This document shows, one piece after another, positions 8,827 through 24,576 of a DNA stretch of 45,068 nucleotides. The first letter of the stretch is position 1, and each line of letters starts with the position of its first letter. This DNA comes from Sulfuritalea sp. (lineage in GTDB: Bacteria; Pseudomonadota; Gammaproteobacteria; Burkholderiales; Rhodocyclaceae). The notes under the pieces are model-generated. The model was given only the letters and a program-made list of their open reading frames with translations. It did no database searches and had not been told where the DNA came from. The DNA is taken from contig JAIFMO010000076.1 of the NCBI GenBank assembly GCA_020048435.1, positions 1 to 45,068 on the forward strand. The letters run 5' to 3'. Both the position numbers and the translations under genes were made by a program.

Positions 8827-9178
8827 AGGGCTGGCGGTTGCGGCCGACACCGTGCGCGCGGCTTTTCAGGTCGGCGACGCGGCCATCGGCGCGTGGCGGT
8901 GGCGCGATCAGCGTCCATTCGGTCGAGTTGTCGGCCACCGGATCGACCGGCAGGGAACGCAGGTAGCGCCGCGACACCAGTTCCTCCAGCGATTCCGGAT
9001 AACGGCCGCAATCGGCGTAAAAGTGGTCGATGGCCGTGCGCGCAATACGCAGGTTCTCGGCCAGCACGGTTTCCTTCGAATTGTCGACGCTCTGAAAATA
9101 GCGGGGCGCGGACAGGGACAACAGCATGCCGAGAATGCTCAGCACCACCAGCAATTCGATCAGCGTGAAGCCTTTCAT
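8813..9178 (-). CDS. Pseudopilin, GspG/PulG-like
   Basis: A 121-residue pseudopilin with leader MKG, cleavage before Phe and the N-terminal helix FTLIELLVVLSILGMLLS including Glu5. The body keeps DCGRYPESLEELV and LPVDPV, which correspond to the GspG YP...GL and DPW regions, but it lacks the GspG C-terminal calcium-site sequence. The track starts at a GTG at 9184. The ATG at 9178 is better: GGAGG lies five bases upstream and the ATG shares a base with the previous stop (TAATG). Confidence 0.8.
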   Translation of the reverse strand: MKGFTLIELLVVLSILGMLLSLSAPRYFQSVDNSKETVLAENLRIARTAIDHFYADCGRYPESLEELVSRRYLRSLPVDPVADNSTEWTLIAPPPRADGRVADLKSRAHGVGRNRQPYAQW

Positions 9179-9666
9179 TACCACCTCCGGTAATCGACGC
9201 CGTTGAGGCCGACCGTGTCCGCGCGGGAGAAGACGTCGTAGACATCCTCGCCCTCCTTCGGCTCGCTGGCCTCGCTGGCATAGCTGCGCTTGCCCCAGGT
9301 CGCGGCCGCGTCGGCCGTGGCGTCTGGATGCAAGGTGTCCGAGTTCATGGGATCGCGGGGAATACGGCGCAGGAAAAACAGCTTGGCACGCTTCGGGTCG
9401 CGCGCGTCGGTCACGCCCTCGGCCAGTACTGCGAGCGATGGCGGGTAACCGCTGCCACCAGCATTGCGCGCGATGCGGCCCTCGTCGGCAGCGCGCTTGT
9501 AGGCGTCGATGGCGTCGCGAATCTCGCGCAAACTCCGCCGCAATTCCTGCTCGCGGCTGCGTTGCACCGAGACTTCCGCCAGCGGCAGGGCAATGCTGGA
9601 CAGCACGCCGAGAATAGCCAGCGTCGCCACCAGTTCGAGCAGGGTGAAACCCCGCTCCTGTCTCAT
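9178..9666 (-). CDS. Pseudopilin, GspG/PulG-like
   Basis: A 162-residue pseudopilin. Leader MRQERG is followed by [20 protein letters not shown] with Glu5. The body has [25 protein letters not shown] and RIPRDPMN, a pattern typical of PulG-like proteins found beside secretin operons. The 3' end overlaps the next pseudopilin by one base, and 10 bases separate it from the secretin gene upstream. Together with its two downstream neighbours it probably forms the tip or body of the pseudopilus. Confidence 0.8.
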
Positions 9667-9676
9667 GTTGCCTGCC

Positions 9677-11494
9677 TCATCGCGGCTGGCTGGTCTCGCC
9701 GGCCGCCGCCACCGGCACCGACAGACTTGCCGGCACCGCTTCGGTGAAGGCGGACAGATCGGGGCCGTGCGCGCGCAGGCTGGATTCCGTGCCCGAATCG
9801 AATTCGGTGCGGGCCAGCGCGGGGCGACTCATGCCACGCACCAGGCGCGGGGTGATCGACAGCATCAGCTCGGTCTTCTGGCCGTCGTCGCTGCGGCTGC
9901 CGAAGAGGCGGCCGACGATGGGCAGGTCGCCCAGCCCGGGAATCTTGTTGGCGCTGCTGCGCTCGGAATCGCTGATCAGGCCGGCCAGCACCTGGTTCTC
10001 GCCGTCCTTGAGGCGCAGCACGGTCGATGCGTTGCGGGTGCCAATCTGGTAGGCCAGGGTGCCGGCCTTGGTCTTGATCTGGTCGACGATGTTGCTGACT
10101 TCGAGGTTGATGCGGATGGCCACCTCGTTGTCGAGATAGATGGTCGGCTGCACTTCGAGCTTGAGGCCGACGTCGATGTACTGCACCGATTCGGCGACAA
10201 AGCCGGTGGCAGTGGCCGTAGTGGTGATGTTGGGCACGCGATCGCCAATAAGAATTTTGGCGGTCTCGCGGTTGCGCGCGCGGATGCGCGGGTTGGCCAG
10301 CAGGTTGGTGTCACTGTCGCCTTTCGACGCCGACAGGGTCAGCGGCGTGATGCTGGCGCCCAGGGTGCGCGAGCTGGCGTTGCGGATGTCGGCCAGGGTT
10401 AGCGCGCCGCCGGCCACCGCCGCCAGCGGCGTCAGCGTCAGCAGGTCGGGCCAACGGATGCCGAGATCGAGCAGGCGGCTGCGCTTCACTTCGAGTATTT
10501 CGACGTCGAGCATCACTTCCGGCTCCGGCAGGTCATGCAGGGTCAGCAGCTTCTCGCTCAACCGCACCACCTCGGGCGTGTCGCGCATGACGATCATGTT
10601 CTGCTTCTCGTCGACAACGACGTCCTTGGCCTTGAGGATGGTGCGCAGGGTGGTGGCCACGGTCTTGGCGTCGGCGTTGGTCAGGTAGAAAGTCTTGACG
10701 GTGAGCGGCTGGTGGTCACGCGCCTTGGCCGGCGTGTTGGGATAGACGAGGATGGTGCCGGCGTCGATGACGCGTTGTTCGAGTTGCTGCGACAGCAGCA
10801 CGACCGTCAGGACTTCCTTCACGGTGGCGCGGCGCAGGAACACCGTGGTCGGCTGGTCGGTCTTGACATCCTTGTCGAAAATGAAATTGATGCCCGAGGT
10901 GCGCGCCAGTACCTCGAAGACCTGCTTGATGCTGGCGTCCTTGAATTCAATCGACACCGGCCGTGCCAGGGCGGCGGCCAGCTTGGCATCGGGAACCGGC
11001 GCGACCAGGCTGGCTTCGATGGCGTCGCGCAGTTTGAGCGCCGCCGCGTTGGTCGGCGCCTCGGTCAATACGGCGCGCAGACGCGACAGGGCCGCGTCGG
11101 CATCGCCCCGCCCCCAGGCGGCTTCGGCCTCGATCTGCCATTGCCCGCGGCGGCGCTCCAACTGGGCCGAGTCGATCAGTTTGCGCGCGCGGGCATTGTT
11201 TGGGTCGAGCGTGAGCGCCCGGGCTGCCAGCGCGTCAGCCTCGGCGCGACGCCCGCCGGCCACCGCCTGCTCGGCCTGTCGCAACCACTGGCTGGCCAGC
11301 TGTTCGCGCGTCGATGCCACCGCCAGGCGCGCTTCCGCGCGGTTGGGCGTCTCGCGCAATGCTGCTTCGAAATGCGGCAGGGCTTCGTCGAGCCGACCCT
11401 GCTCGACAAGCTGCTGCCCCTCGCGGAACGGGCTGGTGGCGACGCAGCCGGCCAGGCTGGCGAGCAGAAGGACTATTGCGAAAGCGTGCTTCAT
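9677..11494 (-). CDS. gspD: Secretin lipoprotein with N-terminal TPR-like region (GspD/PilQ family)
   Basis: A 605-residue outer-membrane secretin. It has a lipoprotein signal with lipobox LAGC (Cys17), then TPR-like helices (about 20-160, e.g. [23 protein letters not shown]), a short secretin/TonB N0-type domain ([19 protein letters not shown]), one N-type domain ([21 protein letters not shown]) and the secretin C-domain ending in [16 protein letters not shown] (near 525) and LSITPRLV. Direct lipidation and TPR repeats in place of the full N1-N3 set are more like MshL/PilQ-type or tight-adherence secretins than classical GspD. The start overlaps the upstream gene as ATGA. Confidence 0.87.
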
Positions 11495-11991
11495 TCTTTG
11501 ATTTCTCCGATGTCGAGCGTGCGCCGCGTCTTGTTGCGGATGTGTTGCAGCGTGAGGTGCGGCGGTTTGATGGCCGCCACCCGATAGTTGTCGCCGAGGG
11601 CGTCGCCCTCGCGCACGACCCAGGTGTCCTCGCCGTGAGCGAGGAAGACAGTCCAGCCGCCCTCATTGCCTTCCGCCAACTGCTTGCCGATGACGCGATA
11701 GGGCAGTGCTTCCGAAAAAGTCGGCGCTAGCGGTACGGCAGTCGGTGGCTCGGCGGGGGCATCGGCGACACGCGGCGGCAGAGCGGCGAAGGGATCGGGG
11801 CCGGGTCTGACCGCGACGGGAAGGTGGCGCGGCGTCAGGGCGCGAAGAAAGACGCCATGATCGGCGCCGCCATCCGGATGCGTGGGGCGAACCGCCGCCA
11901 CGACGGACGTCACCGGCGCGTCACTAAAAACCAGCAACAGCGCGATGCCGGCCAATGCCGCTAGCAGCCAAGGCAGGCGCTTCGTCTTCAT
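11491..11991 (-). CDS. PilP/GspC-like periplasmic linker of the secretion-like system
   Basis: A 166-residue protein with one N-terminal membrane segment (about 7-24), a proline/alanine-rich periplasmic linker and a small C-terminal beta domain (PYRVIGKQLAEGNEG, then VVREGDALGDNYRV and LDIGEI). Such domains in GspC, PilP or MshK-like proteins connect the inner-membrane platform to the secretin, and the gene lies directly before the secretin. A short repeat copy encodes AVPLAPTF at 85-92, at the end of the linker. The ends overlap both neighbours as ATGA. Assignment is from position and topology more than from strong motifs. Confidence 0.6.
   Translation of the reverse strand: MKTKRLPWLLAALAGIALLLVFSDAPVTSVVAAVRPTHPDGGADHGVFLRALTPRHLPVAVRPGPDPFAALPPRVADAPAEPPTAVPLAPTFSEALPYRVIGKQLAEGNEGGWTVFLAHGEDTWVVREGDALGDNYRVAAIKPPHLTLQHIRNKTRRTLDIGEIKE
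11715..11739 (-). repeat. Dispersed repeat, short form, copy 3 (inside the PilP/GspC-like gene)
   Basis: Reverse-complement of the consensus with no mismatch. It lies in sense orientation relative to its gene, which reads it as A-V-P-L-A-P-T-F, the same frame as the dprA copy. Confidence 0.92.
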
Positions 11992-12518
11992 GGCCGGGGC
12001 TCCGCGTGCGATCCGGTGCGTGCTTCGGTGCGTGCTTCGGTGAAAAAGGCCAGGCGCAGGCGCGCCTCGATGCCGCTGCCGGCAGAGTCGCGCTGAATGG
12101 CGAGATCGTCGATGGCCAGGGCCGGGTGCGCGGCCAGCACTTCGGCGAGGAAGGCGCGGAATTCAGGGTAGGGCCCGCGCACCGGCATTTGCAGGGTGGC
12201 GACGGCATGGCGGCCGGCGGCATTGTTGTCGTCGGCGTAGTCGATGCGGCCGAGCGTCAGGCCATGACGGGCCGCTAAGCCGAGAACGTCGCGCTGACGG
12301 GCGTCGAGTTCGGCGCGTGGCACCAGCATGCCACGAAAGGCGCGATGGCGTTCTTCGAGTTGGCGGCTGCCGTCGACCGCCTCCACGGTGAGTGGGGCCG
12401 GGGCCGGCCACAACGTCGCGGCGCTGGCTATGCCAAGCACCGTGGTGGTCAGCAGCACCAGCGGCAGTGCCCGGCCATGACGGCGCAGCCACAGTTCGAC
12501 GCTCAGGCGCGCGCTCAT
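11988..12518 (-). CDS. PilO/GspM-like inner-membrane protein
   Basis: A 176-residue protein with a short cytoplasmic N-terminus, one membrane helix (about 17-36, PLVLLTTTVLGIASAATLW), a coiled-coil-like stretch (QLEERHRAFRGMLVPRAEL) and a small ferredoxin-like periplasmic domain (VATLQMPVRGPYPEFRAFLAEVL), as expected for PilO or GspM. The C-terminus ends with a duplicated four-residue unit, EARTEART, produced by a 12-base tandem repeat at about 12017-12042. It is bracketed by ATGA overlaps with both neighbours. Assignment rests on topology and position between PilN-like and PilP-like genes. Confidence 0.6.
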   Translation of the reverse strand: MSARLSVELWLRRHGRALPLVLLTTTVLGIASAATLWPAPAPLTVEAVDGSRQLEERHRAFRGMLVPRAELDARQRDVLGLAARHGLTLGRIDYADDNNAAGRHAVATLQMPVRGPYPEFRAFLAEVLAAHPALAIDDLAIQRDSAGSGIEARLRLAFFTEARTEARTGSHAEPRP

Positions 12519-13054
12519 GATGCCTCTTTCAGCCGTAGTTCGAGTGAGAAACGCACGGGATGCGCGGCGGCGCCCTCCCCTACGTCCTGTCTCTCCTGCC
12601 CCAGCAGCACCGCATCGGCGACCTCGGGCAAGCGGCGCAGGCGCACCGGCAGTCCGGCCACGAGGCCGGCATCGCGGGCCTGGCCACTGACACGGATCGT
12701 GGCGCGGCGCGGGTCGGCTTCGGCGCTCAGCAGCAGGCCGTCGTCGCGGCTGTCGAAGGTATTTTCCAGTGCGTCGAGCGCGGCCAGCCAGGGAAAGTTG
12801 AGCTTGCCTGTCGCGGCATCGACGGCCTGAATTTCCTCCCTGCCGGGCAGGGGGCGCCGTTCGCTGCTGGCCATCCCGCTAGCCACCATAGAGCCCGCCT
12901 CGGCCGCCGGCGTCAGCAGCCAGGCGGCGCTCGACACGACGAGCAGCAGCGCCCCGGCGCCGCCAGCCAGCCAGCGCGGGCGGGCGGACAAGCGGGCAGA
13001 CAGGCGCGTGGACAGCGAGCGGCGCGGCGTGAAGTCGAGGTGGAGCGGTTTCAT
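12515..13054 (-). CDS. PilN/GspL-C-like inner-membrane protein
   Basis: A 179-residue protein starting MKPLHLDFTPRRS, the kind of short cytoplasmic tail with which PilN binds PilM, followed by one membrane segment (about 29-47) and a periplasmic domain (RATIRVSGQARDAGLVAGLPVRLRRLP, about 118-144) with the PilN/GspL ferredoxin-like fold pattern. The track adds nine residues upstream; I prefer the ATG at 13054, which has a GAGA stretch upstream and gives the typical N-terminus. It overlaps the PilO-like gene as ATGA and starts seven bases after the 203-residue gene. Confidence 0.6.
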   Translation of the reverse strand: MKPLHLDFTPRRSLSTRLSARLSARPRWLAGGAGALLLVVSSAAWLLTPAAEAGSMVASGMASSERRPLPGREEIQAVDAATGKLNFPWLAALDALENTFDSRDDGLLLSAEADPRRATIRVSGQARDAGLVAGLPVRLRRLPEVADAVLLGQERQDVGEGAAAHPVRFSLELRLKEAS

Positions 13055-13061
13055 TGGAATC

Positions 13062-13673
13062 TCAATGGCAGGCGGCGTCACGCAGGGAGCCGACGACCTG
13101 TTGCCGGCGACCGTCGTCGGTGATGCCGGCCTGGCGGCAATCGCGCCGCAGCAGGGTGCTGAAGCGGGCGGCCGAGCGATCCAGCGGTGGATGCACGCGA
13201 ATGCCGCGCCAGCTGCCGCCGGCGATCAGGCCGATGGTGGTGCTCTCGCGCGAGGCGACACAGAAGGTGGTGTCGGGGCCCAGCGCGCCGCAGTGGCGGT
13301 TGTATTCGCGGATGAAGCGCGGCTGCACGCTGCGCAGCCGCCAACCCTTCTCCTCGGCCAGGCGCGGCAGATCGACGGCGAACAGCGTCGGCAAGGCGCA
13401 GGCCAGCCAGCGATCGGCCCCCGGCAGCGGATCGACGCGAATCACCCAGCCGGCGGGATCGTCGCCGAAAAGCTCGGCGTAACGGTCGGCGGCATAGGCG
13501 TCGAGTTCGGCGGCGCTGGCCAGCCCCGCCGGCCGGTCGAGAATCCAGTAACGGGCCAAGGCGTCGGAAATCAGGATATCGAGCAGCGCGCCCGGGCGTG
13601 GTGGCGGCGCCAAGGGCTCGACGCCCTGCCGCGAGACGCGCAGCTGGACGGCTTCAGTGTTGAAGAGTGACAC
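13062..13673 (-). CDS. Unrecognised cytoplasmic protein in the PilM/GspL position
   Basis: I do not recognise this 203-residue protein. It has no signal peptide or membrane helix, is rich in Ala, Arg and Asp, and contains RFIREYNRHCGALGPDTTFCVASREST and a histidine/proline motif RVHPPLDRS. Its place between gspE and the PilN-like gene is where PilM or the cytoplasmic part of GspL would be, so a role in linking the ATPase to the inner-membrane platform is a reasonable inference, but the actin-like nucleotide motifs of PilM are not visible. The start is a GTG overlapping the gspE stop by 20 bases. Confidence 0.7.
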   Translation of the reverse strand: MSLFNTEAVQLRVSRQGVEPLAPPPRPGALLDILISDALARYWILDRPAGLASAAELDAYAADRYAELFGDDPAGWVIRVDPLPGADRWLACALPTLFAVDLPRLAEEKGWRLRSVQPRFIREYNRHCGALGPDTTFCVASRESTTIGLIAGGSWRGIRVHPPLDRSAARFSTLLRRDCRQAGITDDGRRQQVVGSLRDAACH

Positions 13674-15228
13674 GGGCGACCTCCTCCAGGGTGGTGAGAC
13701 CCTCGCGGGCCAGTTGCAGGGCGGCGTCGCGCAGACTGCGCGTGCCCTGGCGGTACGCTTCGGCCTTGATTTCGGCCAGCGGCGCGCGTTGGGCTATCAG
13801 GGTACGCAGACGGTCGTCGAGTGCCAGGATCTCGGCAACCGCCCGACGTCCCCGATAGCCAGTGCCGCGACACTCGCCACAACCCCGGCCCTGGCGGAAG
13901 TTACCCATGTCAGGATGGGCGGCCTCCGCGGACAGGTTGAGGGCGGCCAGCGCGCGTGAAGACGGGGTGACGGGTTCGGCGCACTGCGGGCAGACCGAGC
14001 GCAACAACCGCTGCGCCCAGACGCCGTTGAGCGCCGAGGTAAGGGAATAGGGATCGATGCCCATGTGGGCGAAGCGGCTGAAGACGTCGAAGACATGATT
14101 GGCATGCACGGTCGACAGCACCAGGTGACCGGTCAGCGCCGACTGCACGGCGATCTCGGCGGTTTCGGCGTCGCGGATCTCGCCGATCATGATCTTGTCC
14201 GGGTCGTGGCGCAGGATGGAACGCAGCCCGCGGGCAAAAGTGAGCCCCTTCTTGTCGTTGACGGGAATCTGCAAGACGCCAGCCAGTTCGTATTCGACCG
14301 GGTCTTCGATGGTGACGATCTTGTCGCGGCCGTCGTGAATTTCGGACAGCACGCCGTAGAGCGTGGTGGTCTTGCCGCTGCCGGTCGGACCGGTGACCAG
14401 CAGCATGCCGTAGGGCTGGCTCGCCAGCGCACGCATGCGGGCGAGATCGGCGGCGGCGAAGCCGAGGCCTTCGAGCCGCAGCGATTCGCCATCGGGCACC
14501 AGCCGGCGCTTGTCGAGAATGCGCAGCACGGCATCCTCGCCGTGGATGCTCGGCATGATGGACAGGCGCAGGTCGATGCGGCGGCCCGCCAGCCGCACCG
14601 GGAAGCGGCCATCCTGCGGCACGCGGCGTTCGGCGATGTCGAGTTCGGCCAGTACCTTGAGCCGCGAGATGGCCTGTTCGGCAATTTCGCGACCAACGGC
14701 CCCGCCGACTTTCTCCAGCACGCCGTCGATGCGGTAGCGGATGTCGAGGCCGGCCGGGGTGGCTTCGAAATGAATGTCGCTGACGCCGAGTTTGAGCGCG
14801 TCGTGGATGGTCGAGTTCACCAGGCGGACGACGGGGCTGGCATCCTGGCCGATGCGCGCCAGCGAGACTTCCTCGCCGCGCTCTGCCGTACCGCTAGTCC
14901 CACGGGGATTCCCTTCGGTCACGCCACCGACTTTTTGGGGTGCCGGTTGTGCCAGGGTCGCCAGCGCCGACACGGAGTGCGCCTGACGGGAGAGCCAGGA
15001 GCCGAGATCGGCGGGGTCAGCCGCCAGTGGATCGTCGAATACGGCGATGAGGCGCTGGCCGTCGCGGAACAGGGCGCAGCGGCGCGCCTGCGCCTCGGCC
15101 AGCGGCAGGCGGTCGAAGGCCGGTGTCAGTCGATGCAGTTGCAGCAGCGTCGCGGGCGGGAAATCGGGATCGCGCAGCAGGTCGGCGGCAAGCGTGGCGG
15201 AAAGTGGGAAAGGCAGGGGGGCGTTCAT
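13654..15228 (-). CDS. gspE: Secretion ATPase GspE
   Basis: The assembly ATPase of the type II secretion-like system, 524 residues. After an N1E-like domain (1-95) and a linker come the N2E domain (about 130-240, GVSDIHFEATPAGLDIRYRIDGV), Walker A GPTGSGKTT (280-288), the Asp box, Walker B IMIGEIRD (346-353), the His box (TGHLVLSTVHAN) and the zinc-binding tetracysteine Cys413/416/450/453 typical of GspE rather than PilB-free variants. A long-form repeat encodes KVGGVTEGNPRGTSGTA at 99-115, in the interdomain linker. It overlaps gspF upstream as ATGA. Confidence 0.93.
   Translation of the reverse strand: MNAPLPFPLSATLAADLLRDPDFPPATLLQLHRLTPAFDRLPLAEAQARRCALFRDGQRLIAVFDDPLAADPADLGSWLSRQAHSVSALATLAQPAPQKVGGVTEGNPRGTSGTAERGEEVSLARIGQDASPVVRLVNSTIHDALKLGVSDIHFEATPAGLDIRYRIDGVLEKVGGAVGREIAEQAISRLKVLAELDIAERRVPQDGRFPVRLAGRRIDLRLSIMPSIHGEDAVLRILDKRRLVPDGESLRLEGLGFAAADLARMRALASQPYGMLLVTGPTGSGKTTTLYGVLSEIHDGRDKIVTIEDPVEYELAGVLQIPVNDKKGLTFARGLRSILRHDPDKIMIGEIRDAETAEIAVQSALTGHLVLSTVHANHVFDVFSRFAHMGIDPYSLTSALNGVWAQRLLRSVCPQCAEPVTPSSRALAALNLSAEAAHPDMGNFRQGRGCGECRGTGYRGRRAVAEILALDDRLRTLIAQRAPLAEIKAEAYRQGTRSLRDAALQLAREGLTTLEEVARVTLQH
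14885..14936 (+). repeat. Dispersed repeat, long form, copy 4 (inside gspE)
   Basis: Left arm GCCGTACCGCTAG and right arm CCGACTTTTT are joined by 29 bases beginning TCCCACGGGGATTCCC and ending CGGTCACGCCA. The long form is 27 bases (nine codons) longer than the short form, so exchange of the two would keep the reading frame. It is antisense to the gene. Confidence 0.92.
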
Positions 15229-16409
15229 CGCAGACTCCCGGCAAGGTCGAAGATGGGCAGATAGAGCAGCACGACGATGGTACCGACGACGATGCCGATG
15301 GCCGCCATCAGGATCGGCTCGAAGGCGCGGGCGAAGAAATCGATGCGCCGGGCAATTTCGCTATCGTGGAAGCGCGCCGCCCGCCCCATCATTTCGCCAA
15401 GGCGGCCGCTGCGCTCGCCGACGCGCAGCATGCGCAGCGCCACCGGCGTCACCAGCGCGGCAGCCGCGAAGGCTTGCGACACGCTTTCGCCGCGACCGAT
15501 GGCGGCGGCGGCGGCGCGATAGCGCGGCAGTGTTGCCGCCGTCAGCAGCCCCTCGGCCAGCTGCATCGCCTGCAGGATGGGCAGGCCGCCTTCGAGCAGC
15601 ATGCCGAGCGAGAGATACAGCCGCGCCAGTTCGAAGGTAACGATGGTGTCGCCGATGCCGGGCAGGCGTCGCAGCAATGTCTGCGGCCCATCGCCACGCC
15701 ACCAGCGTTTGCCGGCGAAGAACCCGGCCACCAGCGTGGCGACTGAACCCAGCGCCAGTGGCTGGCCCTGCTTGGCGACGAAGCTGCCCCAGACCATCAG
15801 TTGCCGCGACAGCCAGGGCAGCTCACGGCCGGTGCCCTGATACACGCCGGCGAAGCGTGGCACAACGTGACCGAGCAGGAAGAGCGTTACCAGCAGGCCG
15901 ACTACCGCAAGGATGGTCGGATAGATCAGCGCACTGACGACGCGACCGCGCACGGCGTCGAGGCGGGCCCGGTAGTCGATGTAGCGCGACAGCGACTCGG
16001 GCAGGTTCGAGGTGCGCTCGGCCGCGCGCATCAGCCCGATGTACAACGCAGGGAAGTGCTCGGGCTGCGCCGCGAGGGCGGCCGAAAAGCGCAGGCCCTC
16101 GTCGAGCGCGCGCGCCAGACGTTCGAGCACGAGGCGGCTGTCGGTCCGCTGTTCCTTGTCGTGCAGCGCCTCGATGGCCTCGGTCAGCGACAGACCGGCT
16201 TCGAGCAGCGCCAGCAGTTCCTGGCTGAAGAGTTGCAGGGAAAAGCTATTGCGGCGCGGCCATTGCGGCAGGGTTTGGGTGGCCGCGGTCACCGACAAGG
16301 GCCGCAGGGATTGCGCGCTCACTTGCGCGCGCGCGGCGTCGACATCGGCCGCGTCCACCGTCACGGTGACGACGCCGGCGCTGCCAATGGCCCTGATCGC
16401 GTAAAGCAT
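15225..16409 (-). CDS. gspF: Type II secretion inner-membrane platform protein GspF
   Basis: A 394-residue GspF/PilC family protein. It has the two repeated cytoplasmic helical domains (LFSQELLALLEAGLSLTEAIEAL at about 60-82 and FELARLYLSLGMLLEGGLPILQAM at about 260-283) with three membrane segments, the first at about 165-190 and the last near 368-388. This protein forms the polytopic base on which GspE acts. The start is one base after the gspG stop, and the stop overlaps gspE as ATGA. Confidence 0.93.
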   Translation of the reverse strand: MLYAIRAIGSAGVVTVTVDAADVDAARAQVSAQSLRPLSVTAATQTLPQWPRRNSFSLQLFSQELLALLEAGLSLTEAIEALHDKEQRTDSRLVLERLARALDEGLRFSAALAAQPEHFPALYIGLMRAAERTSNLPESLSRYIDYRARLDAVRGRVVSALIYPTILAVVGLLVTLFLLGHVVPRFAGVYQGTGRELPWLSRQLMVWGSFVAKQGQPLALGSVATLVAGFFAGKRWWRGDGPQTLLRRLPGIGDTIVTFELARLYLSLGMLLEGGLPILQAMQLAEGLLTAATLPRYRAAAAAIGRGESVSQAFAAAALVTPVALRMLRVGERSGRLGEMMGRAARFHDSEIARRIDFFARAFEPILMAAIGIVVGTIVVLLYLPIFDLAGSLR

Positions 16410-16410
16410 G

Positions 16411-16815
16411 TCAGTAAGCGATGTCGGTGTTGTCGCCGCTGCCGCCGGGCGCGCCGTCGCGGCCGAGAGAAATCAGGTCGAAGTCACCCTTGGCGCCGGG
16501 CGTTCGATAGACATAGGGCTTGCCCCAGGGGTCGGCGGGCACGTCCTTCTGCAAATAGGGACCGCTCCATTTGGCCTCGCCGGCCGGCCGTTCGCGCAGG
16601 GCCGCAAGGCCTTGGGACGAGGAAGGATAATGGCCGCTGTCGAGACGATAGGTATCGAGCGCCTTCGCCAGCGCCTCGATCTGGGCGCGGGCCGCCGCTG
16701 TTTCCGACTTGCCGATTTGCGAAAAGTAGCGCGGCCCCACGTAGGCAGCCAGCAGGCCGATGATGGCAACCACTACCAGCAGTTCCAGCAAGGTGAAGCC
16801 GCGCCCTTTTTTCAT
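16411..16815 (-). CDS. gspG: Major pseudopilin GspG
   Basis: A 134-residue protein that is the best match in this operon to true GspG. The leader MKKGRG precedes FTLLELLVVVAIIGLLAAYV (Glu5 present), and the body shows YPSSSQGLAALRERP, GPYLQKDVPADPWGKPYVY, FDLISLGRDGAPGG and a C-terminal DNTDIAY that matches the calcium-binding end of the family. The real start is the ATG at 16815, not the track start at 17064: this ATG overlaps the flavoprotein stop codon as ATGA, which couples translation of the secretion genes to the flavocytochrome genes. Confidence 0.93.
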   Translation of the reverse strand: MKKGRGFTLLELLVVVAIIGLLAAYVGPRYFSQIGKSETAAARAQIEALAKALDTYRLDSGHYPSSSQGLAALRERPAGEAKWSGPYLQKDVPADPWGKPYVYRTPGAKGDFDLISLGRDGAPGGSGDNTDIAY

Positions 16816-18128
16816 GCGAAGGAATCTGCCATCAGGGCGGTGAACCACTTCGTCATCTCTTCGAAGTTGTCCTTCGAGCGCGCCGCCGCCTCGCCCGAAG
16901 ACGCGGCCACCGGTTGCATGGTTTTCGTCAGCGGGTCGTAGGCGAAGGTGGCGGTGAGCCAGGAGGCGGTATCGGCGGTGATCGGCGAGTAGCAGGCCGA
17001 GTTGGTCTGCGGCGCGGCGTCGGGCAGGCGGCCGGAGAGCAGCCGCAGGATGGCGTCGGCGCAAACCTTGGCTTCCTGGTTGGCGATGTGGCCGGCCTTG
17101 GGCTGCGTCGTGGCCGCGGCGTCACCGATGACGTGGATGCCCGGCGCGACTGTCGCCTCGTAGGACAACACGTCGACGCTGGTCCATTTGCCGCCGGCGT
17201 CGGCCAGACCGTTGGCGGCGATCACCTTGCCGGCGCGATGCGGCGGGATGAGGTTGAGGACGTTGCCGCGGATGTTGCCGATATTGGTGTTCACCGTCAT
17301 CGTCGTCGTGTCGACGCTGGCGATGGCAACGCCCGGGTGATATTCGATCACGCCCTGATGCACCACATCAAAGGCATCGGTGAAGGAATGCACTTCGGCG
17401 GTGATGCCGGGGTTGGCGTCGAGCACGATCACCTTCGAGCCGGGGCGGTTGCGCTTGAGCCAGTCGGCGACGAGGCAGGCACGCTCGTAGGGCCCGGGCG
17501 GGCAGCGGTAGGGTTTGGGCGGGATGCTCAAGACGAAGACACCGCCGTTGGGCATGGCGGTGATCATGTTGCGCAGCGCGGTGGTCTGCGGGCCCGTTTT
17601 CCAGGCGTGCGGCGCCTTGGCCTGCGCGGCGGCGGTTTCGAGGCCGGGCAGCAGGTCGAAGTCGACGCCGGGGGCGACGACGAGGCGGTCATAGGCCAGG
17701 CGGCTACCGCCGGCCAGCGTAACGGCGCGCCCGACCGGGTCGATGGCGGTGACGTCGCCCTTGACGACTTTGACCCCGTAGCGACTGGCGAGATTGCCGT
17801 AACCGTACTGGAGCGACGTGACGGTGCGGCTGCCGTTAAGCACCAGGTTGCTCATGATGTTGGAGGTATAGGAGGTATCGCGCTCGACCAGGGTTACATC
17901 GACGCCGGTGCCGCCCCAGTAGCGCAGATATTTTGCCGCGGTGGCGCCGGCCATGCCACCGCCGATGACGACAACACGGCCCTTGATGCCGGTACCGGTG
18001 GGTACGCCGGCCGCCACCGTGGCAGTCCCGCGCTTGCCATCGGCGGCAGCCAGCAGGCTCCAGCCAGCGGCGGTGAGGCTGATGCCGGCGCCGCCGGCCC
18101 ATTTGATGAAATCTCTGCGTTTGACCAT
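16812..18128 (-). CDS. fccB: Flavocytochrome c sulfide dehydrogenase, flavoprotein subunit (FccB/SoxF-like)
   Basis: A 438-residue periplasmic FAD enzyme. A Tat signal (RRDFIK at 4-9, then a hydrophobic stretch to LLAAAD) implies export as a folded flavoprotein. The FAD motif RVVVIGGGMAGATAAK is at 51-66 and a second FAD segment IHVIGDAA at 331-338. The family disulfide that handles sulfide is conserved: Cys209 in YRCPPGPYE and Cys379 in SACYS. Family members oxidise sulfide to sulfur and pass electrons to the cytochrome c subunit encoded just upstream. The track start at 18608 is wrong because it runs through the cytochrome gene; the ATG at 18128 has an AAGGA site. Its stop overlaps gspG. 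Confidence 0.9.
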   Translation of the reverse strand: MVKRRDFIKWAGGAGISLTAAGWSLLAAADGKRGTATVAAGVPTGTGIKGRVVVIGGGMAGATAAKYLRYWGGTGVDVTLVERDTSYTSNIMSNLVLNGSRTVTSLQYGYGNLASRYGVKVVKGDVTAIDPVGRAVTLAGGSRLAYDRLVVAPGVDFDLLPGLETAAAQAKAPHAWKTGPQTTALRNMITAMPNGGVFVLSIPPKPYRCPPGPYERACLVADWLKRNRPGSKVIVLDANPGITAEVHSFTDAFDVVHQGVIEYHPGVAIASVDTTTMTVNTNIGNIRGNVLNLIPPHRAGKVIAANGLADAGGKWTSVDVLSYEATVAPGIHVIGDAAATTQPKAGHIANQEAKVCADAILRLLSGRLPDAAPQTNSACYSPITADTASWLTATFAYDPLTKTMQPVAASSGEAAARSKDNFEEMTKWFTALMADSFA

Positions 18129-18142
18129 GATGGGTTCCTTTT

Positions 18143-18445
18143 TCAACGCTGCGAGGCGAAGTAGTTGGCGATCAGTTGAAGTTGGGCGTCGGTGTAGCCA
18201 CGGGCGTGCATGTCCATCATCTTCGGTGGCGTTTTCCGCTGCATTTCGCGCAATTCGCCGATGATTTCTTTGGCCGACATGCCGGCCAGCCGCTCGAAAC
18301 CGCCACTGCCGTTGGTGCCGTGGCATTGGAAACAGTTGGAGGCGAGTAAGCGCCCGCTGGGCGGGGCCGGGGCCGTGGTCTGGGCGAATGCGGGTGCCGC
18401 CGCCAGGGCCAGTACCAGCCCGCGAATGATCTTGCCGTTGTTCAT
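18143..18445 (-). CDS. Monohaem cytochrome c, likely FccA-type partner of the flavoprotein
   Basis: A 100-residue periplasmic protein with a Sec signal peptide (about 1-23, ending APAFAQ) and a single haem-binding CFQCH motif (residues near 43-47). The probable Met axial ligand lies in PPKMMDMHARG, and the C-terminal helix YTDAQLQLIANYFASQ is typical of class I cytochromes. It lies 14 bases upstream of the flavoprotein gene, which makes it the probable electron acceptor. The ATG at 18445 has AAGGAG six bases upstream; the track start at 18541 adds a basic, unlikely extension. It is the first gene of the long minus-strand operon. Confidence 0.88.
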   Translation of the reverse strand: MNNGKIIRGLVLALAAAPAFAQTTAPAPPSGRLLASNCFQCHGTNGSGGFERLAGMSAKEIIGELREMQRKTPPKMMDMHARGYTDAQLQLIANYFASQR

Positions 18446-18587
18446 GGAAGCTCCTTGTTCTTGTTTCGGGGATGCCGCTCGCTGGCGGCGCTGGGTGGCG
18501 CTCCTGGCGTGGCGCCGTGTTTCGGTTCGCATGATCGCCATCGCGATCCGTCCGCGCTACTGTCGCCAAACCCCAACACTTTGGCGG

Positions 18588-18618
18588 CACGGCCGCATGC
18601 TTTAGCATTGCGGCCGTG
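18588..18618 (+). promoter_or_regulatory. Inverted repeat covering the start codon of the sensor kinase
   Basis: CACGGCCGCA and TGCGGCCGTG are perfect inverted repeats, extended inward by TGC/GCA with one bulged T and a TTTA loop. The GTG start of the kinase gene is the last three bases of the right arm, and no purine-rich ribosome-binding site is visible. The element could be an operator in the divergent region between the cytochrome and kinase genes, or an mRNA hairpin that hides the start codon. Confidence 0.5.
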
Positions 18619-20028
18619 AATCTCTATCCGCGTTCCTTTCTCCGCCTGATCCTGCTCGGCTATGCGCTGGTGGCGCTGCCACTGCTGGCTGCCATCGGCT
18701 ACGTCTCGGTCGGCCTCAACGCCATCGCCGACCGTAGCGCGGCCGCCGTGCAGCAGGCCTCGCTGACGGCCCGGCTTGGCTGGGAACTGCCGGAACAACT
18801 CCAACACATGGAACGCAGCCTGCGGCAGTACGAAGTGCTGCACGACGCCTCGCTGCTCGATGATTACGAAACCTCGCGGCGCGAGTGGCGGCAGAACAGC
18901 GAAGAATTTGCCCGCGTCCCCCTGCTGGCGCCCATCGCGCGCCGCATCGGCGACATGCTGGCAACCGAAGCCGCCGCTCGCCATAAATTTGCGCCGGAGG
19001 CGATCAAGCCGTTGCGCGAAACCGTGACGGCGCTCAAGACGACCACCATTACGCTGCTGAACGAGGCCGGTCGCCTGGTCGACGCCGAGCGTGTCGCCTT
19101 TCGCGGCGAAGCCGAGGCCTTGCGTCACCGGCTCTTTCTCGCCCTGGCCCTGGCGCTCGCGCTGGCTGTCGTCATGTTCTGGTTCGGTCGCCGCGTGCTG
19201 GCGCGCCTGTTGAGCCGAGTCGAACGCGCCGTGATTGCACTTGGCCAAAATCGGCTCGATCGCAGCATCCGCCTCAAGGGGCCGGAAGATCTGCAATGGG
19301 TCGGTCGCCGCCTCGACTGGTTGCGCCGCCGCTTGCTGGCGCTGGAAGAGCAACGCACGCGTATCCTGCGCCATGTCTCGCACGAACTGAAAACGCCGCT
19401 GGCCGCGCTGCGCGAGGGTTCCAGCCTGCTCAACGAAGGCGTGGCCGGCCCGCTATCGCCGCAGCAGGCGAGGATTGCCGGCATCATGCAGGGCAACGCG
19501 CTACGCCTGCAAACCCTGATCGATGGCTTGCTCAAGATGCAGCAGGCAGGGCATGTGCGCGATCGCTTCGAGCCGGTGGCGCTCCGGCTCGACGAACTGA
19601 TCCAGCAGGTGCTGGACACGCATCAGCTTGCCGCGAGGAACAAGCGCCTGCATATTTCCGGTACGCTGGCGCCGCTGACGGTGGCCGGCGGCCGCGAAGA
19701 AATGACGACGATACTCGACAACCTGATTTCGAATGCCATCAAGTTTTCGCCAGAGGATGGGCTGGTGCGGCTGACGCTGACGCGCGCAGGCGATCGCGCG
19801 TTGGTCGACGTGATCGATCAGGGCCCCGGCGTGCCCGAGGCCGACCGCGAGAAAATTTTCGAACCTTTCTACCGTGGCGCCGCTTCCAAGGGCGTGGCTG
19901 GTATCGGTCTCGGCCTGGCCATTACCCGCGAATTTGTCGCCGCCCATCGCGGTTCGCTGGACCTGGTGGCCTCGCCAGCGGGCACTCACTTCCGCGCCGC
20001 GCTGCCGCTCGCCGGGAGCACGACATGA
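18616..20028 (+). CDS. glrK: Sensor histidine kinase, GlrK/QseE-like
   Basis: A 470-residue membrane histidine kinase. Two membrane segments (about 11-33 and 172-190) flank a helical periplasmic domain of about 140 residues, followed by HAMP, the dimerisation domain with HVSHELKTP (His256), and the ATPase domain with NLISNAIKFS, DQGPGVP and GIGLGLAI. Length and the following lipoprotein and regulator genes match the enterobacterial GlrK-QseG-GlrR system. The start codon is GTG; the next in-frame ATG is at about residue 65, too far in. The stop overlaps the lipoprotein gene as ATGA. Confidence 0.88.
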   Translation: MNLYPRSFLRLILLGYALVALPLLAAIGYVSVGLNAIADRSAAAVQQASLTARLGWELPEQLQHMERSLRQYEVLHDASLLDDYETSRREWRQNSEEFARVPLLAPIARRIGDMLATEAAARHKFAPEAIKPLRETVTALKTTTITLLNEAGRLVDAERVAFRGEAEALRHRLFLALALALALAVVMFWFGRRVLARLLSRVERAVIALGQNRLDRSIRLKGPEDLQWVGRRLDWLRRRLLALEEQRTRILRHVSHELKTPLAALREGSSLLNEGVAGPLSPQQARIAGIMQGNALRLQTLIDGLLKMQQAGHVRDRFEPVALRLDELIQQVLDTHQLAARNKRLHISGTLAPLTVAGGREEMTTILDNLISNAIKFSPEDGLVRLTLTRAGDRALVDVIDQGPGVPEADREKIFEPFYRGAASKGVAGIGLGLAITREFVAAHRGSLDLVASPAGTHFRAALPLAGSTT

Positions 20029-20507
20029 GGCCGCGCCGGATTATCGCCATGCTGGCCGTGACGCTGGCCGTGGTATTGGGGCTGGGCGGTTGCGCCGGTT
20101 CGCCCTGGACGGGCGAATCGCAGGAGGTGTTGGGACTGCTCGACTATTACGAGCGCCTCAACGCCATGCCGCCGGACGAGCAGCGCCGCGAGCATGTGGC
20201 GGCCCAAGCCGCCTTCGAGCGGCAACCCGGCGACTTGCAACGCCTGCGTCTGGTCATGTTGCTGGCGCTGCCGCGCGCGCCCTGGCGCGACGATGCACGC
20301 CTGCTGCATCTTCTCGGCGGCCTGGAACCCACGCCCGCCGAGCGGATATCGCCCCGCCGCGAACTGGCGCTGCTGATCCAGAAGCTGGTCGGTGACAGGC
20401 AGCGCCTGCTGCGCGGTGAGCAGAAGAAGGTGGAGGATGCGCAGCAGAAGCTGGATGCGCTGCGCGCCATCGACCGCGAACTCCAGCAAAAGCAATCCGG
20501 CCGATGA
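20025..20507 (+). CDS. Small lipoprotein of the GlrK/GlrR operon (QseG-like)
   Basis: A 160-residue lipoprotein with a signal peptide and lipobox GLGGC, an acidic/leucine-rich body (LLDYYERLNAMPPDEQRRE) and a C-terminal coiled coil of about 35 residues (RGEQKKVEDAQQKLDALR). In enterobacteria the gene between glrK and glrR encodes the outer-membrane lipoprotein QseG, and this protein fits by position, size and coiled-coil content; sequence similarity cannot be judged here. The track ORF beginning at 19296 is mostly a shadow of the kinase gene. Both ends overlap neighbours by ATGA. Confidence 0.75.
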   Translation: MRPRRIIAMLAVTLAVVLGLGGCAGSPWTGESQEVLGLLDYYERLNAMPPDEQRREHVAAQAAFERQPGDLQRLRLVMLLALPRAPWRDDARLLHLLGGLEPTPAERISPRRELALLIQKLVGDRQRLLRGEQKKVEDAQQKLDALRAIDRELQQKQSGR

Positions 20508-21817
20508 GCGCCAGCGAAACGCCGGCGCGGATTCCACGGATACTCGTGGTCGATGACGACCCCGACCTGCTCGAATTGATCGGCATGCGGCTGACGGCGG
20601 GCGGTTACGAGGTGGCGCTGGCCGCCTCCGGCGCCGAGGCGCTCGACATCTTCCGCGCCGAACGGCCCCGCGCCGTCATCACCGACCTGCGCATGGACGG
20701 CATGGATGGCCACGCGTTGTTCGACCGCCTGCACGCCGAAGCGCCGAGCGTACCGGTCATCATCCTCACCGCCCACGGCACCATTCCGGATGCCGTGGCG
20801 GCGACCCAGCGCGGCGTGTTCGGTTTTCTCACCAAGCCTTTTGACGGTCGCGAACTGCTGGCGCGGGTCGGCGAGGCCGTGGCGCTGTCGCCATCCATCC
20901 AGGCGGCCGATGGCGATGCCAGCTGGCGCGCCGACCTTGTTTCCGCCAGCCCGCTGCTGGATGAACTGCTGCGGCAGGCCCGCCGCCTGGCCGCCAGCGA
21001 CGAACCGCTACTCGTTACCGGCGCGCGTGGCACCGGCAAGGAGCAACTGGCCCGCGCCATTCACGCCGCCAGTCCGCGTGCGCGCAAGCCCTTCGTTGTC
21101 ATGCGTTGCGGCCCGCAAGCGGATGTTGCCGACGAGGATGCGTTATTTGCCGAGGCGCTCGCCGCTACCCGTGGCGGCACCTTGTTTCTCGACGACGTCG
21201 ACGCCCTCGCCCCCAGCGTGCAGGTGCGATTACTGCCGTGGGTGCGCGAACCTGGCCTGTTCGCGCCCAAGCGCAACGCAGGTCCCTCCATTCGCGTCAT
21301 TGCCGCGACCTCGCAGCCGCTGGATCAGGCCATCCGCGACGGTGATTTTCGCGCTGACCTGTTCTACGCCCTCAACCAAACCGCGCTGGCGGTGCCCGGC
21401 CTGCCCGAGCGGCGCGAGGATATTCCCCTGCTGGTGACCCATTTCAGCCAGCGCTGGGGCGAGCGCAATCCGGGAATCATGCGTGGCTTTGCCCCGGATG
21501 CGATTGCGCTGTTGCAGGAGGCACCGTGGCCAGGGCATGTGCGTCAACTACGCAACGTCGTCGAACAGGCCCTGGGCCAAACGGTTACGGCAATCATTCC
21601 CGCAACGCTGCTCAGGCGTTTGCTGCGGGAAGACAACGAACGCGAAATGACCGCCTTCGACGATGCACGGCGGGCCTTCGAGTACGAGTATCTGGTGGAA
21701 CTGCTGACCACCACTACCGGCAACGTGGCGCGCGCCGCGCGCATTGCCCAGCGCAACCGCACCGAGTTCTACAAACTGCTGGCCCGCCACAACCTGGAGC
21801 CGGCGGCGTTCAAGTAA
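20504..21817 (+). CDS. glrR: GlrR-like response regulator lacking the sigma-54 GAFTGA loop
   Basis: A 437-residue NtrC-family regulator. The receiver domain has acidic residues VVDDDP, the phosphoacceptor Asp61 (VITDLRM) and Lys110 (FLTKPF). The AAA+ domain keeps Walker A GARGTGKE (172-179) and Walker B GTLFLDD (224-230), but the segment between them is about 14 residues short: where the family has the GAFTGA loop that contacts sigma-54, this protein has only CGPQADVADEDALFAEALAA. One arginine finger remains (FRADLF, Arg282) and the second position is Ala288. The C-terminus (TGNVARAARIAQRNRTEFYKLLARH) is a typical GlrR Fis-type DNA-binding helix-turn-helix. It probably regulates without canonical sigma-54 activation. 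Confidence 0.87.
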   Translation: MSASETPARIPRILVVDDDPDLLELIGMRLTAGGYEVALAASGAEALDIFRAERPRAVITDLRMDGMDGHALFDRLHAEAPSVPVIILTAHGTIPDAVAATQRGVFGFLTKPFDGRELLARVGEAVALSPSIQAADGDASWRADLVSASPLLDELLRQARRLAASDEPLLVTGARGTGKEQLARAIHAASPRARKPFVVMRCGPQADVADEDALFAEALAATRGGTLFLDDVDALAPSVQVRLLPWVREPGLFAPKRNAGPSIRVIAATSQPLDQAIRDGDFRADLFYALNQTALAVPGLPERREDIPLLVTHFSQRWGERNPGIMRGFAPDAIALLQEAPWPGHVRQLRNVVEQALGQTVTAIIPATLLRRLLREDNEREMTAFDDARRAFEYEYLVELLTTTTGNVARAARIAQRNRTEFYKLLARHNLEPAAFK

Positions 21818-21820
21818 GGC

Positions 21821-21851
21821 GCGGTGACGCTCGGGCCGTCGCCTTCACCGC
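21821..21851. terminator. Weak inverted repeat between convergent genes
   Basis: GCGGTGA and TCACCGC are seven-base arms with a 17-base GC-rich loop in the short gap between the regulator and the GGDEF-EAL gene. No T run follows on either strand, so it is at best a weak bidirectional stop or pause signal. Confidence 0.2.
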
Positions 21852-24560
21852 CGCGTTTCAAGCACGGCCAACTGTAGCGCGTGCAGGGCGGCGACCACCG
21901 CATCGCGCAGTTCGATCAGTTCGTCCGCGGCCATTTCGATGCCCTTGCGATTGCCGGCCCGCAGTTGGGCGGCGATGTTGAAGCCGACTTCATGGATTTT
22001 CCGGTGCGGCTCCTCGATCTGCTTGAACTGGGGCAGATGGCGGTACTGAACATAGGCGTCGTCGCGCAGCCAGCGGCCGAAGTTGCAGTTGCGGTGATCC
22101 TGTACGTTTGGCGGCAGGAGCGTGGCATCGGCGCTCTTCACCGCCAGGACGATTCGCCCGACCCAGCGGCGGTGTTCCGCCTCTATCGAGAGCAGGGGGA
22201 AATCGTCGCGCGCCCAATTCTGGCCGGCGGCCTCTATCCACTCAGGATGCTGGCGGAAATCCCGCAGCCATTGCGGCAGGGCTTCTGGCGGCATCGGTCG
22301 GGCAATACCGTAGCCCTGGGCGTGGTCGCAGCCCAGTCGCAACAGCATGGTGCCGTGCCGGGTGCTTTCCACCCCTTCGCCGATGGCGCTGCGCTGGAAG
22401 GCGCGCGCCAGGCCCAACACGCCTTCGGTGATCGCCAGGTCTTCCGGATCGTCGAGCATGTCGCGCACGAAGCTCTGGTCGATCTTCAGCGTGCGGGCGG
22501 CCAGGCGCTTGAGGTAGGTGAGCGAGGAATAGCCGGTGCCGAAATCGTCGATGGCGAACTGGATGCCAAGCTCCTGGCATTGGTCGATGATACGGCTCAC
22601 CATGTCGACATCTGCGAGTGCGGCAGTTTCGAGTATTTCCAGTTCGATACGCGCCGGCGGGATGTCCGGATAGGCAAGGAGCAAGGCCCGCAATCGCGGC
22701 ACGAAGTCCGGCTGCTGCAACTGCAGTGCGGCGACGTTGATGCTGATGTCGAGATGAATATTTTCTGCTTGCCACAACCGCATCTGGCGCAGCGCTTCGC
22801 CCAGCACCCAGTTGCCGAGATCGACGATGAGCGCGTGGTTCTCGATGAAGGGCAGGAAAGTGCCGGGCGCTTGCAGGCCGAGTTCCGGATGCTGCCAGCG
22901 CACCAGTGCTTCGGCGCCGACAACGACGCCGGTGCGCATATTCACCTTGGGCTGGTAATGAAGGCGGAAATCGCCGGCATTCAGGCCAGCCTGGATGCCG
23001 TTGCGCATTTCGTGCTCGTTCACGTTGCGCTGTTCTTCGTGATGGTCGAAGAAGAAATAGCGGTTCTTGCCGGCCTGCTTGGCGGCATACATGGCCTTGT
23101 CGGCATGGCGCAGCAGAATGTCGGTATCGTTGTCGTCGAGCGGAAAGACAACGACGCCGCGCCAGTTCGATCTCGGGCGCAGCTTCGAAGTCGGTCAGGA
23201 TCAGCACGAACTCGTCGCCGCCCAGCCGTGCCACCGTGTCGCCGGAGCGGATCGCCCGGCCCAGGCGCTGGCCCACGTCCACCAGGATCTGATCGCCCGC
23301 CTTGTGGCCATGGGTGTCGTTGATGGGTTTGAAACCGTCGAGATCGAGATAGCAGATGGCGACCAACTGGTTGCGGCGACGGGCCTGGGCCAGCGCCTGG
23401 GTCATGCGGTCGCGCAGCAGCAGGCGATTGGGCAGGCCGGTGAGGGCGTCGTGCTGGGCCATGTGTTCGAGCTGGGCCTGGCGCCGTTCGATGTCGGTGA
23501 GATCGGACAGCACGCCGACATGACCGGTCACGTTGCCAGCGGCGTCGAGCACCGGGGTCAGGTTCAGCATGACGGGGATTTCGTGACCGTCGCGGGTACG
23601 GCGAAATACCTTGCCGTGAAAAGCGCCACTGCCATCCGGCAACGGATCGCCGCCATTTTCTGGCTCGATCGTCGGCGCCAGCAGCGAAAGCGGCTGGCCG
23701 ACGATCTCGTCGAGGCCATGGCCCAGCAGTTGGGTAAAGGCCGGATTGACATAGACGAAGCAGCCTTGCGCATCCATTAGCATGATTGCCTGCTGGCTCT
23801 GCTTGACCGCTTCGCTCATCTGCCGCAACTGGCCGCGGAGGGTTTGCGCCATCTGGTTGAGGGCCTCGGACAGCGCGCCGATTTCGTCGCCGCGATCAAG
23901 GAGCGGGCCGGAGTCGCAACGTCCCGCCGCGATGTCCTTGGCCAACTCCGCCAACCGGATCACGGGCCTGGAAACGTGGCGTGACAGCAGGGCATTGATG
24001 AGAAAAGCGATGACAAGGAAAGCGGCGGAGAAACTTAGCGCCAGCTGAACCAAGGCTTCCATCACCTTGTCGTCGACCACCTGTTGCGGGAAGCCGAGGC
24101 GGATCACCCCGGCATGGGCGCCAGCGGCATCGAAGATCGGGATGGCCACGTCGTAATAGCTGCGACCATCGAAACGCGGGTAAACCTGATTGATGGGCTT
24201 CTTCGCGGCACTTGCGCGGCGCATGACCGCATCGTCGAACACCTTGCCGACCAAGCTGCTGTCATTGTGGAAAAGCGGCTTGCCGGAAAGATCGACGATG
24301 GCGACGTAAGCCAGATGCGGATTGTTTGCCACGATCTGTTTGACCTTCTTCTCCATGCCGGCCAGCGAATCGAGCGGCAGACCGAGATTGAGCAACTCGC
24401 CGATGACGCTGTTGAGGCTCTGGCCGATACCGAGGCTGCCCGTCAACAGCGCCTCGGTGTAGTTCTTGCGGAAATTGACCAGCGTGACGATGGACGTGAC
24501 CAGCAGCGACACGAACAGGATGCCGATCGTGATGAGCAGGATTTTCCGGTTGAGGCGCAT
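21845..24560 (-). pseudogene. Membrane PAS-GGDEF-EAL-CZB gene broken by a deletion near 23160
   Basis: Two overlapping frames encode one protein. The N-terminal part (start ATG at 24560) has two membrane helices around a periplasmic sensor domain, HAMP, PAS (YVNPAFTQLLGHGLDEIVGQPL) and a GGDEF domain with [14 protein letters not shown], which includes an RxxD I-site. After FEAAPEIELA the frame is wrong; the correct sequence resumes in another frame at VVVFPLDDNDTDILLRHADKAMYAAK. About 25 residues of the GGDEF core are missing at the junction, so this is a frameshifting deletion. The remaining EAL domain looks complete ([21 protein letters not shown]). The C-terminus carries a zinc-binding CZB-like domain (HRRW, CNFGRW, HRKIH). 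Assembly error is possible. Confidence 0.82.
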
Positions 24561-24576
24561 GGAGCTTGGTCGCTTC

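Follow-up and report, generated by a model that had tools for sequence, protein, structure and literature searches.

Background

The closest described counterpart of the protein reported here is GlrR (QseF) of Escherichia coli, which has the GAFTGA motif and switches on glmY and rpoE at sigma-54 promoters, glmY by way of three upstream sites (PMC6075780). The published QseF consensus reads TGT-N12-ACA (PMC6075780). Enhancer-binding proteins that have abandoned sigma-54 are already known. The NtrC proteins of Rhodobacter capsulatus and Caulobacter carry a deletion of loop 1 and act on sigma-70 promoters, that of Caulobacter being thought still to use ATP binding and hydrolysis, and Caulobacter NtrX is without the GAFTGA motif (PMC10274813). 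VpsR of Vibrio cholerae is a GAFTGA-less protein working with sigma-70 (PMC10274813, PMC3162934), and TyrR, DhaR and HupR, relatives of the enhancer-binding proteins in which GAFTGA is altered or deleted, are reported to be sigma-70-dependent (PMC3162934).

We report a computational analysis of a loopless GlrR/QseF-like response regulator encoded by Sulfuritalea sp., within a stretch of 45,068 nucleotides that is called the window hereafter. The protein resembles E. coli GlrR in its domain order, in the gene order kinase-lipoprotein-regulator, in an identical helix-turn-helix (HTH) segment, NRTEFYKLL, and in the DNA word TGTC-N10-GACA; it differs in that the loop and the hydrolysis residues have been lost, a single promoter site is present and the neighbours are fccAB and gsp genes. 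The NtrC proteins of R. capsulatus and Caulobacter belong to another subfamily with a separate deletion, and nitrogen targets are theirs; R. capsulatus NtrC binds ATP without need for hydrolysis, and the clade of the window regulator keeps Walker A and mostly loses the Walker B Glu. Amongst the structural matches listed, VpsR (7v2b) has the highest query TM-score, 0.58. VpsR binds c-di-GMP and is not known to belong to a kinase-lipoprotein operon. Brucella NtrX (5m7n/5m7p) is the best PDB match by sequence and, amongst the listed fold matches, by E-value; its aligned sequence is likewise without GAFTGA and it was crystallised with ATP and ADP, though it is only about 32% identical and has another operon and other targets. 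TyrR, DhaR and HupR have other domain architectures or come from other lineages, and we know of none of the three that is derived from GlrR.

What appears to be new here is a clade of GlrR descent together with its predicted operator, symmetric promoters and targets. Our literature search, which had most subscription journals outside its reach, found no description of such a clade, nor of a regulator for the flavocytochrome c sulfide dehydrogenase (FCSD) operon in this group; a regulator, an operator and promoters can now be proposed for one such operon. Most accounts of the passage from sigma-54 activator to sigma-70 regulator draw on isolated cases; here one clade retains intermediates, and the ancestral loop-bearing form survives in relatives, at least two genomes having it together with the derived form. 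With intermediates and ancestor surviving, an unaltered DNA word and a promoter geometry that is legible in the sequence, the switch is directly testable.

Results

The regulator and its operon

Pfam assigns to the regulator a receiver (residues 13-122, 3.3e-30), a Sigma54_activat domain (146-295) and an AAA lid (302-381), so that the AAA+ domain spans 146-300 and is followed by a Fis-type HTH at about 388-437. A preliminary description, made from the letters of the window, had called this reading frame a GlrR-type regulator; the frame is real and its product GlrR/QseF-like, the top NCBIfam model being that of GlrR (NF011695) at 422 bits, a score below the curated cutoff of 763 for this GlrR/QseF equivalog. 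The features of the locus are collected in Table 1.

Table 1. Features of the regulator locus, in window coordinates
Feature	Position	Strand	Basis or remark
Type II secretion-like operon: gspG, gspF, gspE ... gspD, pseudopilin	9178..16800	-	starts 11 nt after fccB
fccB-like flavocytochrome c sulfide dehydrogenase flavoprotein	16812..18128	-	PF21706, 1.3e-35
fccA-like monohaem cytochrome c, 100 aa, divergent, candidate target	18143..18445	-	opposite strand to the kinase gene
-10-like GATCAT on the fccA side, 24 nt outside the operator	18531..18536	-	offset scan
Candidate operator TGTC-GCCAAACCCC-AACA, one mismatch to TGTC-N10-GACA	18561..18578	.	sequence comparison
-10-like TAGCAT on the kinase side, 24 nt outside the operator and 7 nt ahead of the GTG	18603..18608	+	offset scan
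GlrK/QseE-like sensor histidine kinase, cognate, GTG start, HisKA + HATPase_c	18616..20028	+	Pfam, synteny
Small lipoprotein in qseG position, lipobox LGGC	20025..20507	+	translation; synteny with E. coli glrK-qseG-glrR
Loopless GlrR/QseF-like response regulator, 437 aa	20504..21817	+	ORF call, Pfam, NCBIfam, AF2 model
Receiver phospho-acceptor D61	20684..20686	+	Asp in all of 33 loopless and 54 loop-bearing proteins
Walker A GARGTGK	21020..21040	+	Lys179 in 33/33 of loopless clade
Residues 208-231: helix 208-221, then Walker B strand; GAFTGA loop 1 gone	21125..21196	+	alignment, model
Second arginine-finger position, Ala289	21368..21370	+	Arg in 54/54 loop-bearing vs 1/33 loopless

In an alignment of 148 orthologues, from the window's family and beyond, the segment from the pre-loop position to Walker B measures 24 residues in the window regulator versus 38 in 116 loop-bearing orthologues; exactly 14 residues, GAFTGA amongst them, are therefore missing, as against the earlier estimate of about 14. 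In the AF2 model of the protein (mean pLDDT 85.5) the unbroken helix runs directly into the Walker B strand (226-230), a plain helix-to-strand connection in which no displaced loop 1 was found. A displaced GAFTGA-like loop, an alternative raised in the preliminary description, is absent from both alignment and model and was rejected. That description also had both Walker motifs kept, which is true of Walker A but not of Walker B: the latter reads LDDV (D230-D231) and, because D231 stands at the position of the catalytic Glu (DD, not DE), is only half kept. The arginine finger that it gave as Ala is the second one, the first (R283) being retained, and the receiver, with D61, T89 and K111 all in place, is intact as it had stated, as is the DNA-binding domain.

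The kinase, lipoprotein and regulator genes form one operon in the E. coli order, the lipoprotein frame overlapping the genes on both sides, and in the loopless loci compared the kinase gene adjoins the regulator. No match to the lipoprotein was found in Pfam or NCBIfam.

A single, ancient clade of loopless regulators

A GlrR match at 1e-80 occurs in 206 of 399 genomes of the window's GTDB-type family, 28 of which carry the loopless form, as counted from alignments. In a tree built without the loop columns, all 33 loopless proteins sampled fall into one clade (SH-aLRT 100) and, since every member shows the same deletion or degeneration, the loss goes beyond chance. A rooted tree, including E. 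coli GlrR and with two other regulators as outgroup, nests this clade inside loop-bearing GlrR on a stem of 0.91 changes per column (a quick tree), the nearest sister being poorly supported (74-76). The loss is ancient and clade-wide. Named members come from Rhodocyclaceae, Sterolibacteriaceae (Sulfuritalea, Sterolibacterium), Azonexus and Sulfurisoma sediminicola, whose orthologue is 76% identical to the window regulator.

Two genomes, G125 and G205, encode both the loopless and the loop-bearing form. The loopless protein is accordingly a paralogue lineage, and the idea that it is GlrR itself minus the loop was dropped. Near-full-length but degenerate loops persist in some members (33 residues in L044, L046, L129 and L144; 36 in L048), which suggests that the loop decayed before it was deleted.

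Mean pairwise identity is higher amongst the loopless than amongst the loop-bearing proteins in the receiver (77% vs 63%) and in the HTH (76% vs 70%), and lower in the AAA+ core (48% vs 70%). Within that core the clade retains the Walker A Lys throughout and arginine finger 1 in 32/33, and has the Walker B Glu in 6/33 and the second finger in just one protein. As six loopless proteins retain the Walker B Glu, hydrolysis may survive in a side branch. In the Azonexus-type branch (L007, L053, L137-L140) Walker B reads KD, QD or QN, the first Asp being lost as well, and in L140 it reads RQ, a further decay of the ATPase site. Each domain gives a dN/dS of 0.01-0.33 in all loopless pairs compared (<0.35), and RpoN was found in 8/8 loopless genomes tested, so that the loss of the loop is not a by-product of the loss of sigma-54; the window's own genome encodes RpoN and other NtrC-family regulators. 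Taken together, the conservation pattern, dN/dS and RpoN indicate a protein in use, with its input and DNA contacts strongly constrained and its ATP-hydrolysis machinery not.

Two further genomes of the window's genus, G001 and G002, have neither a GlrR match at 1e-80 nor a close FCSD match, the regulator and its putative target being jointly absent.

A predicted operator and two predicted symmetric promoters

All fcc-linked loopless loci carry TGTC-N10-GACA between fccA and the kinase gene, 40-45 nt upstream of the kinase start, with one mismatch in the window and in L047 and a perfect palindrome in L043, from the cultured Sulfurisoma sediminicola BSN1; no exact palindrome was found upstream of the kinase in the loop-bearing loci examined. 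Of the fccAB promoters examined, 13/13 have the operator where the genome encodes a loopless regulator and 0/17 where it does not, the loci compared being related sequences and not independent events. The E. coli glmY region holds three sites, TGTCGCTAAAAAGAGACA, TGTCGCCAGAAAGCGACA and TGTCGTGATTTACAGACA, that represent the same word, and these as well as the palindrome match the published TGT-N12-ACA in sequence. In the loopless loci L037, L042, L044-L046 and L123 no standard operator was found in the locus DNA searched. A pattern search of the window's genome returned one high-scoring site, the local operator, and weaker matches, sought as further targets, were no commoner than in a backwards control, for which reason a local regulon is assumed.

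Hexamers resembling -10 elements lie 24 nt out from the operator on both sides, TAnnAT towards the kinase and [GC]AnnAT towards fccA. When offsets were scanned in 15 loci, A..AT occurred at +24 in 13/15 on the kinase side, the remaining two having it at +26, and in 14/15 on the fccA side; other offsets gave 0-3 loci. Of the palindrome-like matches in the control loci (168 in 1.09 Mb), none showed the two-sided arrangement. The kinase-side -35 matches at 3.6 of 6 positions, versus 2.5 at random, and some members of the clade have a recognisable one, such as TTGACC in L033 and L036. On the fccA side the -10 has G or C in place of the initial T and the -35 is weak, and for these reasons the sequence does not fix the sigma factor there. 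If the hexamers are -10 elements, the operator covers roughly positions -54 to -37 of each promoter, and the kinase mRNA is almost leaderless. Upstream of the kinase gene, sequences resembling sigma-54 promoters occur about as often as chance predicts (1/25 on the forward strand, expected 0.09 per sequence), and sigma-54 promoters at the putative targets were therefore rejected.

The putative targets

In loopless loci fccAB is usually followed by type II secretion genes, an order common to the Sulfurisoma-type and the deep Azonexus-type branches. None of the loop-bearing loci examined has fccAB beside the kinase, and the twelve best FCSD relatives within the family all come from loopless genomes. 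At a guess, the secretion genes are co-transcribed with fccAB or export the flavocytochrome. The linkage of fccB to type II secretion is kept in most fcc-carrying loopless branches, which hints at one functional unit.

Sulfuritalea-type genomes have the same bidirectional operator about 4 kb upstream, where it heads a longer operon of a membrane protein (no Pfam match), a multihaem cytochrome c, a FAD/4Fe-4S oxidoreductase, kinase, lipoprotein and regulator, with another multihaem cytochrome gene across the operator. Locus L038 has lost fccAB, and across its operator stands a gspE-like gene. Given these loci and L048, the notion that the target is always fccAB was dropped; the common theme is electron transfer by c-type cytochromes, joined in one branch by type II secretion. 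The antiquity and extent of the loss, the paralogue status, an identifiable operator and likely targets had all escaped the preliminary description.

Discussion

We think it likely that a duplicated GlrK-QseG-GlrR system has abandoned sigma-54 and that its output half, the regulator, now acts in a sigma-70-type manner at two divergent promoters. The regulator very probably binds the predicted GlrR-type word beside two back-to-back ordinary promoters, and is most likely a phosphorylation-controlled regulator of the sigma-70 type, an activator rather than a repressor. The kinase would phosphorylate D61, and the phosphorylated dimer would use the conserved HTH to bind TGTC-N10-GACA, a site covering roughly -54 to -37 of either promoter and centred near -45, where the dimer could recruit sigma-70-type polymerase to the fccAB(-gsp) promoter and also to that of its own kinase-lipoprotein-regulator operon. 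The AAA+ domain would then be a scaffold for dimerisation or nucleotide binding and would no longer drive remodelling with ATP. The nature of the targets leads us to guess that the signal is either reduced sulfur or the redox state of the electron-transfer chain in the periplasm. We also lean towards a wider account, in which a duplicated sigma-54 activator changed its polymerase partner and kept its DNA word, distant multiple enhancers gave way to a single palindrome set symmetrically near -45 of a divergent pair of sigma-70 promoters, the AAA+ motor degenerated step by step, and the circuit was fixed on the fccAB-type II secretion operon and, in Sulfuritalea-type genomes, serves multihaem cytochrome operons that have this same bidirectional promoter.

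The fixed geometry bears on the sign of the regulation. A protein with the same operator and targets that represses one or both promoters, phosphorylation relieving or imposing the block, is in our estimation unlikely: the operator lies upstream of, not over, the -35 and -10 elements on either side at the same fixed spacing, which fits contact with polymerase better than occlusion, and the fccA side is without a good -35, as expected of an activator-dependent promoter. Nevertheless, the palindrome abuts the -35 region of the kinase promoter (the TTGACC of L033 and L036), GAFTGA-altered proteins of the TyrR/PhhR kind can repress (PMC3162934) and some sigma-70 genes are repressed by Caulobacter NtrC (PMC10274813). 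The same palindrome might instead serve another regulator of the fcc region, the loopless GlrR acting elsewhere; just one high-scoring site exists in the window's genome. We hold this to be very unlikely, as the site is close to the E. coli GlrR enhancers and NRTEFYKLL is unchanged, its presence tracks the loopless regulator, and in Sulfuritalea-type genomes, where the kinase is distal in a longer operon, it is that operon which the operator heads.

Continued use of sigma-54, by a contact that has moved or in partnership with another enhancer-binding protein, would draw on the RpoN and other NtrC-family regulators of the genome and on the retention of the Walker A Lys and the first arginine finger. 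The modelled structure has no loop 1, however, most of the clade is without the Walker B Glu and the second finger, sigma-54 promoter-like sites stay near chance, and a single promoter-proximal operator at fixed spacing replaces distant multiple enhancers, all of which makes this reading highly improbable. The earlier expectation that the protein no longer remodels sigma-54 polymerase is well supported by these losses and by the drift of the AAA+ core, and the sigma-70-type role it suggested gains computational support from GlrR-type palindromes 24 nt from -10-like elements on both sides and from the lack of enrichment of sigma-54 promoters. That drift, with only 48% identity within the clade, and the two other genomes of the genus without GlrR at the threshold used could also be read as signs of a decaying pseudo-regulator with no regulatory function. 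We give this hardly any credence in view of the low dN/dS in every domain of all loopless pairs compared, a receiver and HTH better conserved than in loop-bearing GlrR, and an operator conserved together with the regulator. An activator of the sigma-70 type thus remains the reading that we prefer.

Neighbouring gene and other operator-like sites

The regulator gene is adjoined by a GGDEF-EAL gene (21845-24665, minus strand) with an apparent frameshift near 23.1 kb that puts the GGDEF and EAL-CZB parts in different frames, either a real lesion or an assembly error. Some operator-like sites of other genomes, L203 and L207 among them, were set aside as apparently lying within coding sequence. In genome G011 two operator-like palindromes (L206, L211) precede related small genes whose products start MN(H/R)EQWLQKR, in similar sequence context, and may be extra targets or a repeated element. 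In genome G095 the operator-like sequence TGTCGGGCAGCAGCGACA (L209, C1:1511048), with TATAAA at 24 nt, lies 7 kb away from the main operator, upstream of a lipoprotein gene, and is a possible second target in Sulfuritalea.
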